Below are positions 38,514 through 48,575 of a stretch of 64,000 nt of DNA, in pieces. Source of the stretch: Paracyclopina nana (lineage: Eukaryota; Arthropoda; Copepoda; Cyclopoida; Cyclopettidae). Under the pieces are notes generated by a model. The model had not been told where the DNA came from and did no database searches. It saw only the letters and a program-made list of their open reading frames with translations. The DNA lies in the NCBI GenBank assembly GCA_019096065.1, contig JAGUCH010000003.1:5704001-5768000 (forward strand), given 5' to 3'. How positions within the stretch are numbered: the first letter of the stretch is position 1; every line of letters starts with the position of its first letter. Both the position numbers and the translations under genes were made by a program.

Positions 38514-41500
38514 CTAATTATCCAAGAACCTGCTGGTTTCTTTGGAAACAATGCCCTCGGATTTTAACCTGTCCAGCATGGGTCTGTAGATGTCCGCTGA
38601 GAAGGGCAGCACCATGCCAGTTTTCTGAATTTCCTTGTCCAGCACCATCCTACAAAAAAGAGCCAATTAGTTTTAAAAGGGTCAAAGTCAAGCAAATGGC
38701 GGTGTTCACCTTGTTGCAATGGCACAAGGGAAACCGACGGTTTTAGCCATTGCTGAATATCCAGTGGGTTCACCATAGGCAACCAAGTTGATGCCTCGCT
38801 TTTCTCGTCTGCTATCTGGCCACTTGATGATAACCTGGAAAACATGGTCAAATTTAACCCTTCGAGCTATTAGTTTCACAACCGACGACAGATGTTCAAT
38901 TGTGAGCTTGAAAAGAGTGATTTTACGCATCTAACGAGAGGCTACTTTAGTTTCACTATCTAACTAACTATTTTAAGCATACCTCGTGGCGCATCAAAAC
39001 CATGTCGCGTTCGTCTGCGTCAAAGGACAAAATGGAAGCCAAATGATTGCTGATCGTGTCCAGTGGCGATCCGAATTTCTCCACCTTTTCCTCGGATAGC
39101 AGGCCCAAATTGACGAGAGCAGCGGTGCGTTTTTCTGACCCGATTCTCTCGCTGATCATCTCCAAAAGATTGTCGATGAAAATCGTATCTGAGGGCAGAC
39201 CCAGCAATTTGCACATCAATTGACGCCATGTGATTTCAGGGCCCTGCAAATGTAGAAAGTTTAATTGACTTGTTGCTTCTTGTTTAAAAGCCTCTTCAAA
39301 TACTTGAGAATGAAGAGCAGGATGCTGATGGGGAGACAATAGTCCCATTCGCACGAGTCCCTTTAGAACGTCGGTATAGCCTGAAATAGAGTGGTTTTGA
39401 AGTCGTGAAATCACAAACGAGATTTTTCACTATCGCTATCAAAAGAAATTGTGTCAAACGCCTTGTACGAACGCCATATGGTGGACGGACGCGCGTTATT
39501 TCGGCTACTTGAGACACATAAAATGCTGCGCGGATTGCTAGCTAGTTCTGAACGCGTTAGTTAAGGTTTTCTCAAATATCTGACTGCACATGCATTATTT
39601 ACCTGCATATCGGAGTGTCCCTCTGAGCAAAGTGTGAGCCTCGCGGATGCCGTAGAGCTCTCCATAAATAGTGGAATCCCTGTTAGGGTAGCCTTCCAGG
39701 TGGAAACCTGGCAAAAAGTCCATGGGCACGGAGGCATCGAGGAGTCCCCCCTCAGGATCGATGGTCACAACTTTCCCATCTTGTAGATATCTAGCTGCAT
39801 GAGTGGAAGAGGGCCCCAAATGCCATTAATTAATTCTCCCGGAAAACCATGAAAGATGTAATGTACCTCCTGACAGCATGTTCATCAGAGCTCCCCTTGG
39901 GCTCCATGAAAACTTATATCCCAAGGGATTATCTGAGGCCTCTGGGGCTGGAAGGCCACCGCAGTATGAAATGAAGCTCTCCACTTTTCCGCCACCAGTG
40001 TGCGCCTCATCGAAGCACTCCATGGCCAGCAAATGGTCAATGCCAGGATCGAGGCCAACCTCATTGACGATTGTGATGCCAGCGTTGGCAGCCTCCTTGT
40101 GAAGAGCCTGGAGGTGCTCCGTGCAATAGGAGGCAGTGACCATGTTCACTTTTTGGCTGATGCACCGTTTGGCCACTTCCGGATGGAGTGTCCATGGCAA
40201 AAGGGAAACCACGATGTTGTGTGACTTGATCAAGTCATCCAAGTGGCTGGGGCTGGAGTGAACATCCAGCAGCACTGGCTCAGTCCGGGGAAATCTGCAG
40301 CAATAAAATGGTTAATTCGCATTTTATAGATGTCGCATTATTCAGCTCCTACCTCTGTGCAACCTTCTTGGCTTCTTCTTTCAGCGCAGAAGCTACGGTG
40401 ACACCAATGCTTTGATCTCTTGTCAAGTAGTCGACCACAGGCGCTGAAACATATCCAGCTCCCAAAATGAGAACCTGGGAAAAATGTTGAAAAGAAGCTT
40501 GTTTTGATGCAATGTGATATACTATATTGTTGTACCTTTTTCTCAGAGTTGAAGTCTCCTGGGATGATGGTCTCATTGGCCTCTCTGAGCTTGGCAATGT
40601 ACTCGAAATTGGGTGTCAACTTTCCACCGGAAGTGATGACAGCTCCTGATACCACAGGGCCCATTTTTGCAATTTCGTGCTCAGCAAAGCTCTGAGCAAA
40701 GATTTCTTTTTTAATCATGGTCGTCCACCGCGAGCATAAAAATGAGCCTACCTGAGATGCATCTGATTTGAGAATGTCAAACACATGCGGGAACAGCAGG
40801 TCTCCAAAGAAATCTGTGGCTTCTCTGGGCAGTTGGGTTGGCATGTTGTCAATGGAGCAAATGAGCACACCAGGGCCCTGAAATATGTATTTTTTAAAAG
40901 ACCTCACACTAAGTTTTCATTTGATATTTACTTTGAAGGTCTTCTTGTCCTTGTTCCTATCAGCATCATACAAGCAAAAAGGTTCATCAATGGTAGTGCA
41001 TTCATTCATAAACTCAATGGAGCCTCCAGGATCGGCTGAGATGTCACAAATGGCCAACAGTCTATGGGGGAGGCTAGGGGTGCCTTTGAACGCAAAACAT
41101 TATTCCAGAGCCATTATTTAGTAAGTAGAGATAGCTACCTTTAGCGCTTGCAATCCAGGGTGAGTGTTGAGGGGTCAAAAGGGCTTTAGCGTCTGGAATG
41201 GTGAGAAGTCGCGGAGTGTTCGGAGCCCAATAAATGCCATTCACAATCACAGACGAATAAGGTGCGAATTTGTGCGCAAAGTTGGAGACGTAACGTTCTG
41301 GATGCTCCTCAAATTCCTTTGCGTCAAAGCCGCCACCATTTTTACGCTCAAATTGGTCCTTTCTGCTAACCTACACGAATATAAGAAACAGCTATTTCTA
41401 GTTTGAAATTAAGCAATATATCGTGTGATTTCAACGACATATTTGCACACAACGCTTCTTTGGATCCACCTCATGATTTCACTTACTTCACAAGCATAAA

Positions 41501-42786
41501 GTTTATCTGTTTTTCCATGCTGTGCCACTTTGGCCAACATGGATGGAGTGACATATTCGTGAGGCAACTCTTGGAAAATTTCCTGGGCGCCCTGAGACAC
41601 ATTTCCCGAGCCAGTAAATACAAAAGTCATCGGCCCAATGGACTGAGGCATCATGCCCAGGGAAACCTCGTAGCCTAAGGAAAATTATGTCAATTTAGTG
41701 AAACGTTTTCTCTCTGCATGGTCAGCTCATGATTTTACCAGCATCCCGAATGCCTTGTCTGGCATGGTGGGAATTTCTGTAGTTGTGGGCGGGGCCGATA
41801 TGCATGAACGGGGTGTGATGTCCCAAAGCCAACAAGCGCAGTCCAACTCCGTTCAAAATGTCAATCATTCCTGCGATGCCTGCATACTTGCCAAATGCAA
41901 CGAGCCTTTGGCCTATGAAGAAGCACAATATTACCATGAAATCATAACCCTCTTCGCGTTTCTTTTATACCTGACTCGTCACACATTCTTTCATAGTCAA
42001 TTAGCCTCACATTTTTCTCCAGACAGGCATCCAGTAGCTCCATATTGTCTTGCTGTGCCTGAAAACCAGTAAAAGTATAGTGGTTGAAAAAAAGTTTCTC
42101 TTTTGCAAGTTGGACGGTGTGCTAATGTATAGTGAAATACCTTAATGGTGTGTGAGAAAAATACAAATGTCTTGTCCCTTTGCAAGCTGTCGACGGGAAC
42201 TTGTTTGACCCCAAAAACCACAGAAGCTTCAGAAATGTCTTCCTTGATGATGGCTCCAGCATTGGCATAGGCCTGTAATGGTTTCCGGCTTGCATACATG
42301 TTTGTTTTTGCCTTTTATATTCCACTTACTTGCATAGGATAAGCTCGCCTGTTTGAGGGCTGCACGATGACTTTGACGCCTTCTTTGATGAGCCTCCGCA
42401 CATGATGAGGCCCTAACGGCGCTCTCCTTTCCCACACGCTTTGATCTTCTCGCCGGATGGCCATCACCTAAAAGCAGTCATTTTTACAGCACCCCCCAGA
42501 TAATACCCATAATAAGTATTCAATTGGGAGCACTCATGAAATATGGAAAAAACACAGAAAGAAACTACTCGAAACACCGCTTAGCTGATTATTTGGACCG
42601 GAAACGAACCTTCCAAATTTCTTTCTGAAAGCCACATGAAAAGAGGGATATTGAAAGAAATACGCAATAAAAAAAGGCGACTAGTATTTCTATGCTTACC
42701 TTTTGACCACCGGTATAAGAGGCATATCTGACGGATGTCCTCAAATTGTTGCTCATTAAGAACAACCGCTTATGAAGTGACCCCAT
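38514..42786 (-). CDS. AASS: Alpha-aminoadipic semialdehyde synthase (LKR/SDH), bifunctional
   Basis: Mitochondrial enzyme for the first two steps of lysine breakdown through saccharopine. Seventeen exons in sense order: 42786-42700, 42467-42330, 42272-42141, 42058-41971, 41912-41739, 41674-41487, 41370-41139, 41083-40932, 40877-40752, 40691-40536, 40474-40353, 40294-39867, 39794-39603, 39380-39304, 39243-38983, 38834-38710, 38649-38514; 937 residues (human 926). The N-terminus [23 protein letters not shown] is a presequence. The LKR half has [30 protein letters not shown] and [11 protein letters not shown]; the SDH half has [16 protein letters not shown] (Rossmann), [16 protein letters not shown] and [20 protein letters not shown]. 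Intron 39303-39244 is 60 nt and in frame, so retention would also read through. The start codon is 20 bp from the divergent Spätzle-like ATG. Confidence 0.95.
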
Positions 42787-42806: not shown

Positions 42807-45800
42807 ATGATGCGGGCCCTGCTTTCAACTGTAGTCTTTCTGGCGGTGAACTGTGGCAGCCAAACTTCCCCGTTTATGGCGGCCGACCGTGGAAATTTGC
42901 CGGACTGTCAGATTTACGGCCGCACTTATTGCCTGCAGATCGATTCGTATCCAACGTACGCTAGTTTTTTACTAACACCTATTTATCTGGCTAGCTGCCA
43001 CTTGATTTTGCGTCTCGCTGTGTGATTTTATTCGAAAGCTCTTGACACAGTGGTCAGTTTAGAGAGACTGAAGTCATTTTACTTCAGAGGACAAACAAAA
43101 ACGGACGGAGCGGCTAGGAGCGGAGCTAATCCACAATAAGGATTTTTCGAAAGTTGAGGAAACCCAATTAGGCTAGTTCTTTATTTTGTTTTGTTTTTTT
43201 CGCATATAAAATGTTCTGCTTACAGGTCTAATTTGGCGGAATAAAATGCAATGTTATTTATTAATTACTAATCAGTTTTTAGTCTGAATCAAACTAGAAA
43301 ATCAAGTCGAACATTGTGTATATTCTTAGCGTGGAGCATTTAGCAACAGTTTTGGACGTCTATTGATGGAGGTCAAAATCTGGGCAACACGTGCGGTGTG
43401 AAAACTTGCTAGCCAACACAGTGGAAAGATTGATATACAAAACATTGCAATGATCACATATGGAAAAAACCCACTCGCATTTGTACCCGGAAGTGAAATT
43501 TAGAAAGCTCGCAATTTGCGAGAGTTGCACCAAAGCTTAATTTATATTTATTATCACCAATTTCTTTTATTCCATTTCAGAGACACGATTCGATACCTAC
43601 TAGACAATCATTTAGTCGATGTTACTTCAATAATTTTGAGCGAAGGAACGCCATTGATGAAAAACACTCGCGCTCACTCTGGTAATCAAACGCATTCCTT
43701 GCGATTCGGAGAAGATGGAAGTCCGCAATCTTTTTATGTGCAGAATCGGTAAACCTCTATCTATTCCTCGGTACTCTACTCTTTTCAAATCAAGGGAAAG
43801 CCATTTCGCTCGCATATTTTAAAATGCACTTTGAAAATTGTTTGCCAAGTTGGGTGAGCTGAAAAAATTAATGATAGTAGTATATACTTTTTAGAGCCCC
43901 AAAACAAGAGCCAGAATCCATTACAGTCAAAGTACAGAAAAAAGTCTCGCTGTCCTCAAAAAAATCTCAAAAAGAGGAGAAAATGAGGCCTGAAGAGCAA
44001 CTGCCATCAAATGCTATATCGTCAAATCTTCAGCCAGCCATTTCGAAGCCTGCGCAAAACTCGGTGGAAATGGGGCAACCTAAAGTAACGATCAAATTTT
44101 CAGCTACTTTGTCATTATCCGCATCTGCAATGCATTTCGATCTTTCATAGGATTTGAACACAAGTGAAAGCCTGTTCAGCGAGCTTAAAGATGCGTTTTC
44201 AAACATGGACAAGAAACCTCCCATCATCGAAGAGATTGTCAACATCAATGACTCAAAAGTGGATGACTCAACAGGTGAAGAGCCATTTATTGTGCACGCT
44301 AAAATTCAAAAACCCATCAAGCCTCTTCGCGTAAGAAATGAACCATCTAAAAATGAATACATATTTCAAGAATATTTATTCCAGCCCAAAGTGGAAGAAA
44401 AAGTGCCCAGTGCTGAGTACGAGCCGCCAATTCCTAGCAGAGATTTTAATTTCGAAAACTTCCAAGAAGTGCAATCAGTTGATGATACCAATCCGAGTGA
44501 TGCGCAGTTTAGTGAGACTGTACCTAGCTTTCCCTCTTTTCCCGCACACGATGAGAAATCCATCTACTTTGACCACCAAACTGTGAAGAAGTTTGAAAAC
44601 CCTCCATCTCTCTCGTTCAACGCAATTAAATCCACGACTGAACTCCCCAAATACACCTATTCCATAAAGAATACGCCCACTGTGGGCTCATTTTTTAACG
44701 AGGATGAGCTCCATCTCCCAGGCTCTGAGGTGACCACAGAGCTTCCACAATACACCTACAAGTTGGCAGATTACACCACCACAACGCCAAAAAAGTACAC
44801 ATTCCACTACATCGAGGACAACGCAACTGAGCCGCCACCTTTACCCAAATTCACTTACAAGCAATTAAGCGATCCGCCCAGTGCAATTGAGGCAGCAGCT
44901 ACTAATGCACCTCGCAAGAGTGGCGGATTCTTTGAGCAATTGCATGCTGACAAACCTCCGCAAAAGTTCACCTATGGAATTTTTGAATCCGTGACCGAAT
45001 CGAGCACAGAGCGGCACAAGCAAAACTCAGAAAATCCATTTCTGAGAAAAAACACTCTTTCAGAGTTGAACGAAGTGCCCTCAGCGAGTGACATTCCTCG
45101 TAAATACACTTTCAAAGTATTCAAACAAGATGAAGAATCTGCGGATCCTCCCAAGAAGTTCACCTATGGACTGCTGCCAACCGAAGCAACATGGGATCAG
45201 AATGAAGAAACAAGTACTGAGCAACCTCCCAAAAAATACACTTATGGCCTATTTCCAACGGAAGAAACTGCGACTGAGGAGCCTGTCACAGAGAGAAAGC
45301 CCCAGATCAGGGTGACATATGGGCTGTTATCTACTGAAAGACCCACCGTTGCTCCACAATACGTTGGACAATTCTACGCGGTCAAAGGGTCGCCCCAGGA
45401 AAGCTACTATCCAATCAGTGAATCTTTGGGGGGAAAGCAGCACCACAATGATGATAGTGACCTTTTGCCTGCTGAAAATAGCTTTTTTGACTACACGACG
45501 GCCAAGCCACCTCAGAGGAGGACTTCCAAGGCAACCACCGAGCCACCGGCAAAAAAGTACACTTTTGGGATTCTCCCTGCAGAAAAACCTACTGTAAATA
45601 TCCCAACCACCAAGAAGTACTCGTTTTCAGTGGTTTCTGAAAGCAAAGAGCACAAAACTGGCACCACAGAGCCTCCATTTTCCATGGCGTCCATGGCCAC
45701 AACATTAGGCTATTTCCCTCTGTCGCCAGAAAAAGATTTGATTCCAGACTTGACCATAGAAGACAGGAGAAAGCTAGGACTGTTTAAACCTGTAGTAACG

Positions 45801-47146
45801 CAAGAACTCGTCAAGATTTTGGAGGAAACCATGAAGAAAATTGAGCCTCGTGACATTCCGAAAGAGGACGAGATTAACCAGTTTGAAAAGATCAAAGAGG
45901 AAATCAACCAAGATTTGCAAGAGTTGAACATTTTTGCTCAGCAGAGCTTTGACCCACCTGCAGTGGAAGTGGCCACCTCTACTCCCGTCAAAAGAGTGGT
46001 GACAGCAGGTATTTTTATTTCATTTAGGTCTTATTATGTTTGTCCAATTAACCGAGTTGGAATTTCAGAGCCAAGGATAGCATTGAATATGCCCAGTGAA
46101 CCCCTGAATTTGAATGAGCCATTTGATGAATTCGATTTCAAACCCATCCTCAACCCTCCACCCTCATTCTACCAACTGAAACCGGTTAATTCCAACAACC
46201 CATTTTTGTCCTCTCCAGGCCATTCTTTCACTGCTCCCAGACTGGAGGAGCCGGCTGCTGTTGAATATTTAGACCAGTCCATCGATACAATTTCCGCGCC
46301 TTTCTCCCACCAAAACTTTGAGTACGAGGACGCAGTGGACCAAGTGCAAGAAGTGGTCGTGACGAATGACGAGCCACCTCCCATTCCAGACTATGACGAG
46401 GCGCATGTGAATTATGAGCCAAATTATTACCAGCAATCTACTCATGCGCTTAGGGAGCAGCCTGTTGCAGAGAGGCAGGTTCAAGCGCAAGCGGGTAGCA
46501 AATCTGACTTTTTGCTCAAGAAAGCCTTCAGAAAAGTCTCCAATTTGTTTGACAACCTTTTCTTCAGGGGGTAACTATGATTTTAATTAAAGCCATTACT
46601 CGATGCAATAACTGCCCTTCATAGGTTTGGCTTATCTCGCAGCCGGAGGGAAGCTTCTGAAGAGTCCAATATTTGCCCTACTCGAACTCATTTCATTCAT
46701 CCCAAAGTGGCTTTCAGTGTGAAAGGTAGTACAATATTGACCCTTTCAATATTTACTTGAATACGTAGTATTTTTACACTTTACTGCCATTATAGTATTT
46801 CTTCCGTGAAGTATTTTAGAAATGTATTATCCTCGATTTAAGGTCAGTGGCTGTATATTGTAAATCTTCCATGGAAAGAGAACCAACAACAGGGCATAGT
46901 CACCGAGGAATGCACGTAAGCTGCATCATTGCAATAATTACGCAAAGAGCGCTTAAAATCAAATATACTATTTTCTACAGGACTTCAGAGTGCAGTGGAG
47001 TGTGCGCCAAAAATTCGTTAGAAGTCAAGACTGGTAAATGTGAACCTCAATTTGTGCAAAAGCGCTTGGTAGCCTTACACCCAAGTGGCCACAAATTGAT
47101 CAGTGAACTGTTCTGGTTCCCTGCAACTTGTCGATGCGCTCTGTAG
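42807..47146 (+). CDS. Spätzle-like cystine-knot ligand with giant repeat-bearing prodomain
   Basis: Secreted Toll-receptor-type ligand. Eight exons: 42807-42955, 43581-43748, 43895-44084, 44151-46008, 46069-46570, 46625-46725, 46843-46915, 46981-47146; every junction is GT-AG and the sum is in frame, 1068 residues. A signal peptide (MMRALLSTVVFLAVNCGSQ) starts it. A furin-type site RSRR lies at 961-964. The mature part (104 residues) has seven Cys in Spätzle order, with HFIHPKVAFSVKGQWLYIVN, EEC, SECSGVC, CEPQFVQKRLVALHP and FWFPATCRC. The prodomain is about 940 residues, far longer than in Drosophila Spätzle, and at about 331-666 holds some eleven K-[YF]-[TS]-[YF] repeats (KFTYGLLPTE, KYTYGLFPTE, KYTFGILPAE) between Thr/Pro/Glu linkers. 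TTTTTTTTTTCAG directly precedes the ATG. Intron 46009-46068 (60 nt) is in frame. AATAAA at 47177. Confidence 0.9.
42956..43580 (+). other. First coding intron of the Spätzle-like gene (625 bp)
   Basis: By far the longest intron of this gene; the others are 54-145 bp. No exon, repeat or RNA gene was recognised in it. It could hold regulatory sequence, since the start region is squeezed against AASS. Confidence 0.5.
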
Positions 47147-47627: not shown

Positions 47628-48575
47628 ATGGTGACCGATCCTTTCGTAAGAGCACTTTGCTTCTGCTTTTGGGCGGCTCTGGAGCTGGTCAGCATTCCTT
47701 TGCTAGCGTTCACCATACTATTTGAATACAAGCAGGGCGATCCTCTCAAAAGAAATCTGATTGACAGGGTAAGATATGCACTACATATTTTGTGGCATAA
47801 CTTTCTAGACTAAAGTTAACGACATACGTACTAGATTGCATCAATCAGTTGGAGGGTGACCATTTTGAGCAGCCTCATCCCCCACTCGATTTATTCCTAT
47901 GCCATGCTAGTAGAACCTGTTAATGCCGTAGTAGCTCAACTCTTTATCTTCTTAAGAGAGTTGTTCAACTCATTGAACCTTTTCTCCTTGGTGGAAATGT
48001 CCATGATCAACTTCCTGGTCTTACATGTCTGGAAAAGACATCCTCCCATCAACGAGGACTTCTTCTTGAGGTTTTTCACCCTGCTCAACCTCACAATTTC
48101 ATTTATGGTGGCAACAACAGACTGCATGAAGGTCAGAAAATGGTATTTCCTGTTGCAAAACATGGAGTTGCCAAAGCCGGAAAGCTTTGAGCCAACAGCC
48201 TCACTGATCTTGGCTTTTGGATCTCTGATAGCATTTGTTACCAATATAGTGAGTATATTCCTTACAAAGAAGAGGAATACTGTTGCTGTGCATCCAGTCA
48301 ACCAAGGCAACTATAACAACATTGCTAGAAACAGCGAAGTCTTGAGCATCAATCACGTTTTGAACAACTCCCTAATCGCTATGTTAGTTAGCATCACAAC
48401 TGTCGTGCATAGGCTGCTTCAAAGACACACAACCCAAGAGTATGTCAATAATCTAAATGCCATTCACTATTTCATCACGGCTTTGATAGTGGCATCATTC
48501 ACTCCCTTTTTTGCTCTGTACAAGCTCCCAGCCATGCGAAAATATTTCCGAGACTGTTTGAGTAAATCACAATAA
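47628..48575 (+). CDS. Orphan seven-transmembrane (GPCR-like) protein
   Basis: Two exons, 47628-47768 and 47835-48575; 293 residues. Seven hydrophobic segments can be drawn: ALCFCFWAALELVSIPLLAF; VTILSSLIPHSIYSYAML; FSLVEMSMINFLVLHVW ending in WKR where class A receptors have DRY; FFTLLNLTISFMVATTD; SLILAFGSLIAFVTNIVSIF; SLIAMLVSITTVVHRLL; and YFITALIVASFTPFFALY followed by KLPAMRKYFRDCLS, which looks like TM7 plus helix 8 (NPxxY replaced). Loops are short. I do not recognise a ligand family; it resembles a very reduced class A receptor and may be lineage-specific. The start is supported by TM1 and the junction keeps frame. AATAAA follows near 48616. Confidence 0.75.

Follow-up and report, generated by a model that had tools for sequence, protein, structure and literature searches.

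The Drosophila Spätzle precursor comprises 326 residues, far fewer than the 1068 predicted for the precursor described here, and a cysteine adjoining cysteine V of its cystine knot is taken as the interchain bridge. Among other described members of this family of Toll ligands, Tenebrio Spz4 is reported to have 380 residues in all (PMC7084639), and Drosophila DNT1 (Spz2) to be an 886-residue protein with a 468-residue prodomain (residues 31-498) (PMC2586362). DNT1 and DNT2 are described as having conserved furin sites and a furin mode of cleavage, whereas the Spz prodomain is described as lacking a furin site; Toll activation is described as depending essentially on a helix that adjoins this site in the Spz prodomain, DNT1 and DNT2 reportedly do not conserve the sequence of this helix, and DNT1 from S2 cells is reported to be secreted with a truncated prodomain, not as the bare knot (PMC5412559). 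According to a comparison of insect genes, the part coding for the knot has a characteristic intron-exon structure in Spz, Spz2, Spz3 and Spz5 (PMC8296651). Published subfamily rules allow proteins of the Spz1 type just one cysteine besides those of the knot, adjacent to cysteine V (PMC2772990).

Here, we analyzed a Spätzle-type gene of the copepod Paracyclopina nana, located at 42807-47146 on the forward strand of the window, that is, the whole 64,000-nucleotide stretch of DNA under study. As rebuilt from the sequence, the gene has eight exons separated by introns that are all GT-AG, and encodes a 1068-residue predicted precursor with the following features:

42807..42955, forward strand: exon 1, with the start codon, a hydrophobic leader (putative signal peptide, judged by eye) and the C-x-C-x-YP module; a phase-2 intron begins two bases past the YP codons
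43581..43748, forward strand: exon 2, residues 50-106, continuing the YP module, with phases 2/2
43895..44084, forward strand: exon 3, residues 106-169, where the inserted prodomain begins
44151..46008, forward strand: exon 4, residues 170-789, encoding the full set of 11 aromatic repeats (336-658) and, between about 705 and 768, predicted helices
45156..45185, forward strand: an example repeat, KFTYGLLPTE, residues 505-514
46069..46570, forward strand: exon 5, residues 789-956, an acidic Pro-rich stretch followed, towards the cleavage site, by a candidate basic amphipathic helix (about 935-957)
46625..46725, forward strand: exon 6, with the furin-type site RSRR (961-964) and the first knot cysteine
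46843..46915, forward strand: exon 7, the knot as far as cysteine II; a phase-2 intron begins two bases past the cysteine II codon, as in some paralogues
46981..47146, forward strand: exon 8, the remainder of the Spaetzle domain and the stop codon

The intron phases (2, 2, 0, 1, 2, 1, 2) allow the frames to join across all seven introns, so that the exon model at 42807-47146 is phase-consistent, with splicing as predicted from the sequence. A splice-site script, trained partly on this same gene and also used as a rough guide for the paralogue L017, favored later acceptors for exon 2 (43641) and exon 6 (46643); in a control, it recovered three of the five introns preceding the knot exactly, and for introns 1 and 5 it chose the correct donor but a later acceptor. 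Use of the acceptor at 46643 would shorten the precursor by six residues and replace RSRR with RGRR, which still conforms to R-x-[KR]-R. Exon 4 lies in an open frame of 807 codons (44151-46574) that reads through intron 4, compared to a maximum of 211 codons in 500 shuffles. Intron 4 itself (46009-46068) is 60 bases long, a multiple of three, and stop-free; if retained, it would lengthen the precursor by 20 residues without breaking the frame.

The gene is arranged head to head with a gene for saccharopine dehydrogenase on the reverse strand (Pfam matches at 39829-40311), the likely start codons, judged by eye, being at 42756 (or 42786) on the reverse strand and at 42807 on the forward strand. 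Immediately before the forward ATG, a poly-T tract and a CAG form an acceptor-like site, which suggests that the 5' leader may derive from an upstream exon inside the neighbor, or from trans-splicing. Just 3' of the Spätzle gene, an open frame at 47835-48575 resembles, by eye, a multi-pass membrane protein and has no Pfam match.

The Spaetzle domain (PF16077) was recognized at residues 971-1067 with 64.9 bits against a cut-off of 27 (E 1e-17), confirming the assignment to the Spätzle family made in the preliminary description; it was the sole Pfam domain recognized in the precursor, with nothing in the prodomain above the cut-offs. The nearest solved structures to the knot in a PDB search were Drosophila and Aedes Spätzle, with E values of 3e-5 to 2e-4 (about 3e-5 for the Drosophila entries 4bv4 and 3e07). 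Residues 965-1068 contain seven cysteines, six of them expected of the knot, including the C-x-C ending, here TCRC, and the stop codon follows two residues past the last knot cysteine, leaving no C-terminal extension. The initial count of seven cysteines in the knot holds, but their arrangement differs from that of Drosophila Spätzle: the position next to cysteine V is Thr (TCRC, as opposed to CCKC), and the seventh, extra cysteine precedes cysteine IV, within SECSGVC. Judged from sequence comparison, the Thr does not exclude membership of the Spaetzle family, and the cysteine next to V is absent from 13 of the 14 other complete knots of this genome (L020 has it, and so does L023 by a separate analysis). 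Because the knot lacks this cysteine, covalent dimers of the kind formed by Drosophila Spätzle are not assured. No relatives of the knot were confirmed in viral contigs.

In the phylogenetic tree, the gene is placed weakly near the Spz1-like rows (80/91), on a long branch. By the published rules it is not of the Spz1 type, as there is no cysteine next to V and one extra before cysteine IV (PMC2772990); it also lacks the extension after the knot that is expected of the Spz2/DNT1 subfamily. The extra cysteine between III and IV is a feature reported for Daphnia Spz7 and Spz8, and also Spz3 (PMC2772990), and would be shared by the Paracyclopina protein if the cysteine of SEC is cysteine III, although the eight exons and the long insertion set this gene apart from Spz7/Spz8. 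We read the short paralogues of the same genome as Spz7/8.

Evidence that both ends of the precursor belong to one Spätzle gene comes from the paralogues. The 92 Mb genome (10 contigs) contains at least 22 exon-level Spaetzle matches, this gene included, and the C-x-C-x-YP pattern is present in 14 of the 15 paralogue loci, L024 being the one without it, with five of the 20 rows apparently arising by chance at other places in these loci. A profile built from seven paralogue modules of this genome scored 10.2 bits against residues 20-105, the best of 2000 shuffles reaching 5.9; against the whole precursor, its alignment covered only residues 39-60, at 6.2 bits (E 5.5e-4 for one sequence). The module is, as judged by comparison with the genome's own paralogues only, a feature of the Spaetzle family. 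In 5 of 14 paralogue loci, a GT lies two bases past the YP codons, with a stop at once after it, which is what an intron there would produce, and exon 1 ends at the same place; a GT after YP alone says little, because four more of the 14 loci have it at the same offset inside an open frame. Similarly, 4 of the 10 paralogue loci examined show a break two bases past the cysteine II codon, as does exon 7, so that each of the two intron positions, the one past YP and the one past cysteine II, appears to be common to some paralogues. With homology and intron position marking both ends as Spätzle, and with frames running through between them, a single gene, as originally proposed, and not two, is well supported by the sequence.

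Between the YP module and RSRR, exons 3-5 insert a prodomain of about 850 residues, where the short paralogue L010 has only about 42 residues from YP to the first knot cysteine. The preliminary description put the prodomain at several times the length found in known Spätzle proteins; this is accurate for the short members, whereas the difference from Drosophila DNT1 is about two-fold (PMC2586362), and the claim to unique length is further weakened by the paralogue L017, with 784 residues before the knot, leader included, in a rough model. L017 (G000:C2:2121000-2130900, reverse strand) is a second very long Spätzle gene of the genome, in which the knot is followed on the same strand by long open frames, of 573 and 213 codons. 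It resembles the gene studied here in its long low-complexity prodomain, the YP module and the GT two bases after YP, but its low-complexity part precedes the YP module instead of following it, it has a long C-terminal tail, and the repeat motif is not in excess there, its two [YF][TS][YF] sites being within chance, which rules out a shared repeat. L017 is DNT1-like by its long tail only, because a pattern search of L017 and L034 did not find the Spz2 motif as quoted in one source (PMC2772990). At another locus, L015 (G000:C4:8840000-8849900), a pair of Spätzle knots lies in tandem on one strand, separated by about 0.5 kb.

A close parallel in overall layout is Drosophila DNT1, likewise reported as a secreted precursor with a long prodomain and furin-type sites, cleaved before a Spätzle-type knot (PMC2586362, PMC5412559). 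Nevertheless, DNT1 has a C-terminal tail of 285 residues, which this protein lacks, and a prodomain of only half the length, and the cited descriptions of DNT1, as far as they go, mention no such repeats (PMC2586362, PMC5412559). Given that long low-complexity Spätzle precursors exist in DNT1 and L017, the present gene stands out for its aromatic repeat and for carrying it C-terminal to the YP module.

The strict motif K[YF][TS][YF] has nine matches and the looser [KRQ][YFV][TS][YF] 11, all within residues 336-658 and all encoded by exon 4, whereas 20,000 shuffles of residues 27-964 yielded means of 0.11 and 0.37 matches and maxima of 3 and 5, respectively. The report of about eleven repeats in a very long prodomain is thus borne out, as are the eight exons (as a predicted model), the 1068 residues, RSRR at 961-964 and the seven cysteines of residues 965-1068, all of which are present in the sequence. 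The repeats are spaced irregularly, 15 to 82 residues apart, a common form being P-P-K-K-[YF]-T-[YF]-G-[LI]-[LF]. Across all 55 repeat pairs, the four core codons agree at frequencies of 0.86, 0.70 and 0.50 at the first, second and third positions, respectively; the greater variation at third positions suggests that the copies are old and have been constrained as protein. A tandem array at the DNA level was ruled out, since between 42500 and 47500 Tandem Repeats Finder listed nothing but an unrelated 22-base run. At the DNA level, a pattern encoding P-x-K-[YF]-T-[YF]-G matched three times in the gene and twice elsewhere and is uninformative, because the reversed control also totaled five matches. 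Among the titles and abstract openings listed in searches of the open-access literature with unaccented spellings, none mentions a Spätzle with this repeat.

In a single-sequence fold of residues 505-788, covering five of the 11 repeats, the repeats were modeled mostly as coil with pLDDT under 50, and helices were predicted at 705-710, 720-732 and 741-768; since the mean pLDDT of this single-sequence model was only 50.9, low values are no proof of disorder. At the other end of the insert, RSRR is the sole R-x-[KR]-R site in the 1068-residue precursor, and, when 18-residue windows were scanned from residue 27 onwards, the helical hydrophobic moment peaked in the segment just ahead of this site, LKKAFRKVSNLFDNLFFR (938-955). 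This candidate helix beside the cleavage site, together with the cystine-knot domain, recalls Drosophila Spätzle, from which the protein differs in having a furin-type site. The analogies for furin cutting and for the role of the helix are therefore drawn from different relatives, because in DNT1 and DNT2 the sequence of the Spz helix is described as not conserved, and DNT1 as retaining a truncated prodomain (PMC5412559).

Taken together, the domain, the repeats, the cleavage motif and the phase-consistent exon model are features of the sequence itself, and the explanation that we favor, with reasonable though far from full confidence, is a furin-processed Spätzle-family Toll ligand encoded by a single gene and carrying a probably disordered, multivalent prodomain. 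The secreted precursor would consist of the leader, the C-x-C-x-YP module, the probably disordered insert of about 850 residues and the cystine knot, with the insert bearing the 11 short aromatic repeats, a stretch of helix and, next to the furin-type site, a basic amphipathic helix. As in reports on Drosophila DNT1 and DNT2, the cut at RSRR would most likely be made by a furin-like convertase; the released knot would then, most likely, act on a Toll receptor. The prodomain would help folding and secretion. Until the cut, the helix beside RSRR may shield the knot, as reported for Spätzle, and the repeats, acting as multiple weak versions of a single binding motif, would set the holding or sorting of the precursor or of the freed prodomain.

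An alternative that we consider unlikely is that the insert is a neutral, fast-evolving disordered expansion without a function of its own, in which case only the YP module, the helix at the site and the knot would matter. The disordered look of the modeled part (505-788), the presence in L017 of another long low-complexity prodomain devoid of the motif, and the in-frame 218-residue precursor that remains when exons 3-5 are removed would all suit such an expansion; however, the repeat cores keep their residues while third codon positions differ, and the repeat counts far exceed those of shuffled sequences with no tandem array in the DNA to account for them.

More improbable, in our estimation, is a tether in which the repeats bind matrix, chitin or cuticle and hold the ligand until cleavage. 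Eleven spaced motifs of aromatic and basic residues in Thr/Pro/Glu linkers would suit multivalent binding, and the leader implies an extracellular precursor, but the resemblance of the repeats to matrix or cuticle sequence, noted in the preliminary description, did not hold up when kinship was sought within this genome, Pfam and PDB. The repeat block matched only itself in the 92 Mb genome, leaving matrix or cuticle kinship without sequence support there, and the best match of a trimmed repeat concatenation outside the gene had an E value of 0.97; Pfam revealed no matrix or chitin domain, and the PDB search with residues 17-964 returned one chance match (E 0.35). Moreover, each of the five segments spanning residues 27 to 930 carries a net negative charge, so that binding to sulphated glycans is not favored.

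We see a slim chance that the ligand is splice-switched, with a short form that differs from the repeat form in range or latency. By frame arithmetic and translation, exons 3-5 form a phase-symmetric block of 2550 bases, omission of which would give a 218-residue precursor in frame, and prodomain isoforms are reported for Drosophila spz and DNT1 (PMC5412559, PMC2586362). Symmetric phases, however, are expected by chance in about one case in three, and because five other skips are also in frame, the skipping of exons 3-5 is a prediction, not a result; the symmetry may bear on splicing or on the origin of the block. A more elaborate and highly speculative version, to which we attach very little weight, is that the repeat cassette is a separable localization module: the eleven K-[YF]-T-[YF] motifs would hold the cut or uncut precursor on a polymer or cell-surface partner, skipping of exons 3-5 would free a short ligand, and splicing would set the range of the Toll ligand. 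Finally, although the exon model is predicted from sequence alone and exon 4 lies within a very long open frame, a split into two genes, with exons 1-5 coding for a repeat protein and exon 6 starting a short Spätzle gene, can be dismissed as extremely improbable, given the family module and family intron position of exon 1, the lack of a methionine in the exon 6 translation and the phases that join through all seven introns.

What the sequence presents looks like a real gene for a Spätzle-type ligand with an unusually long, repeat-bearing prodomain, a striking variant of a known ligand type and not a new kind of ligand. Prodomains are described as contributing to the timing and place of Toll-ligand action (PMC5412559), and a repeat that can be counted and dissected, placed between a conserved module and a cleavage site, offers a handy case for studying prodomain roles beyond ligand blocking. 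If kept in relatives, the repeats would define a short partner-binding motif.
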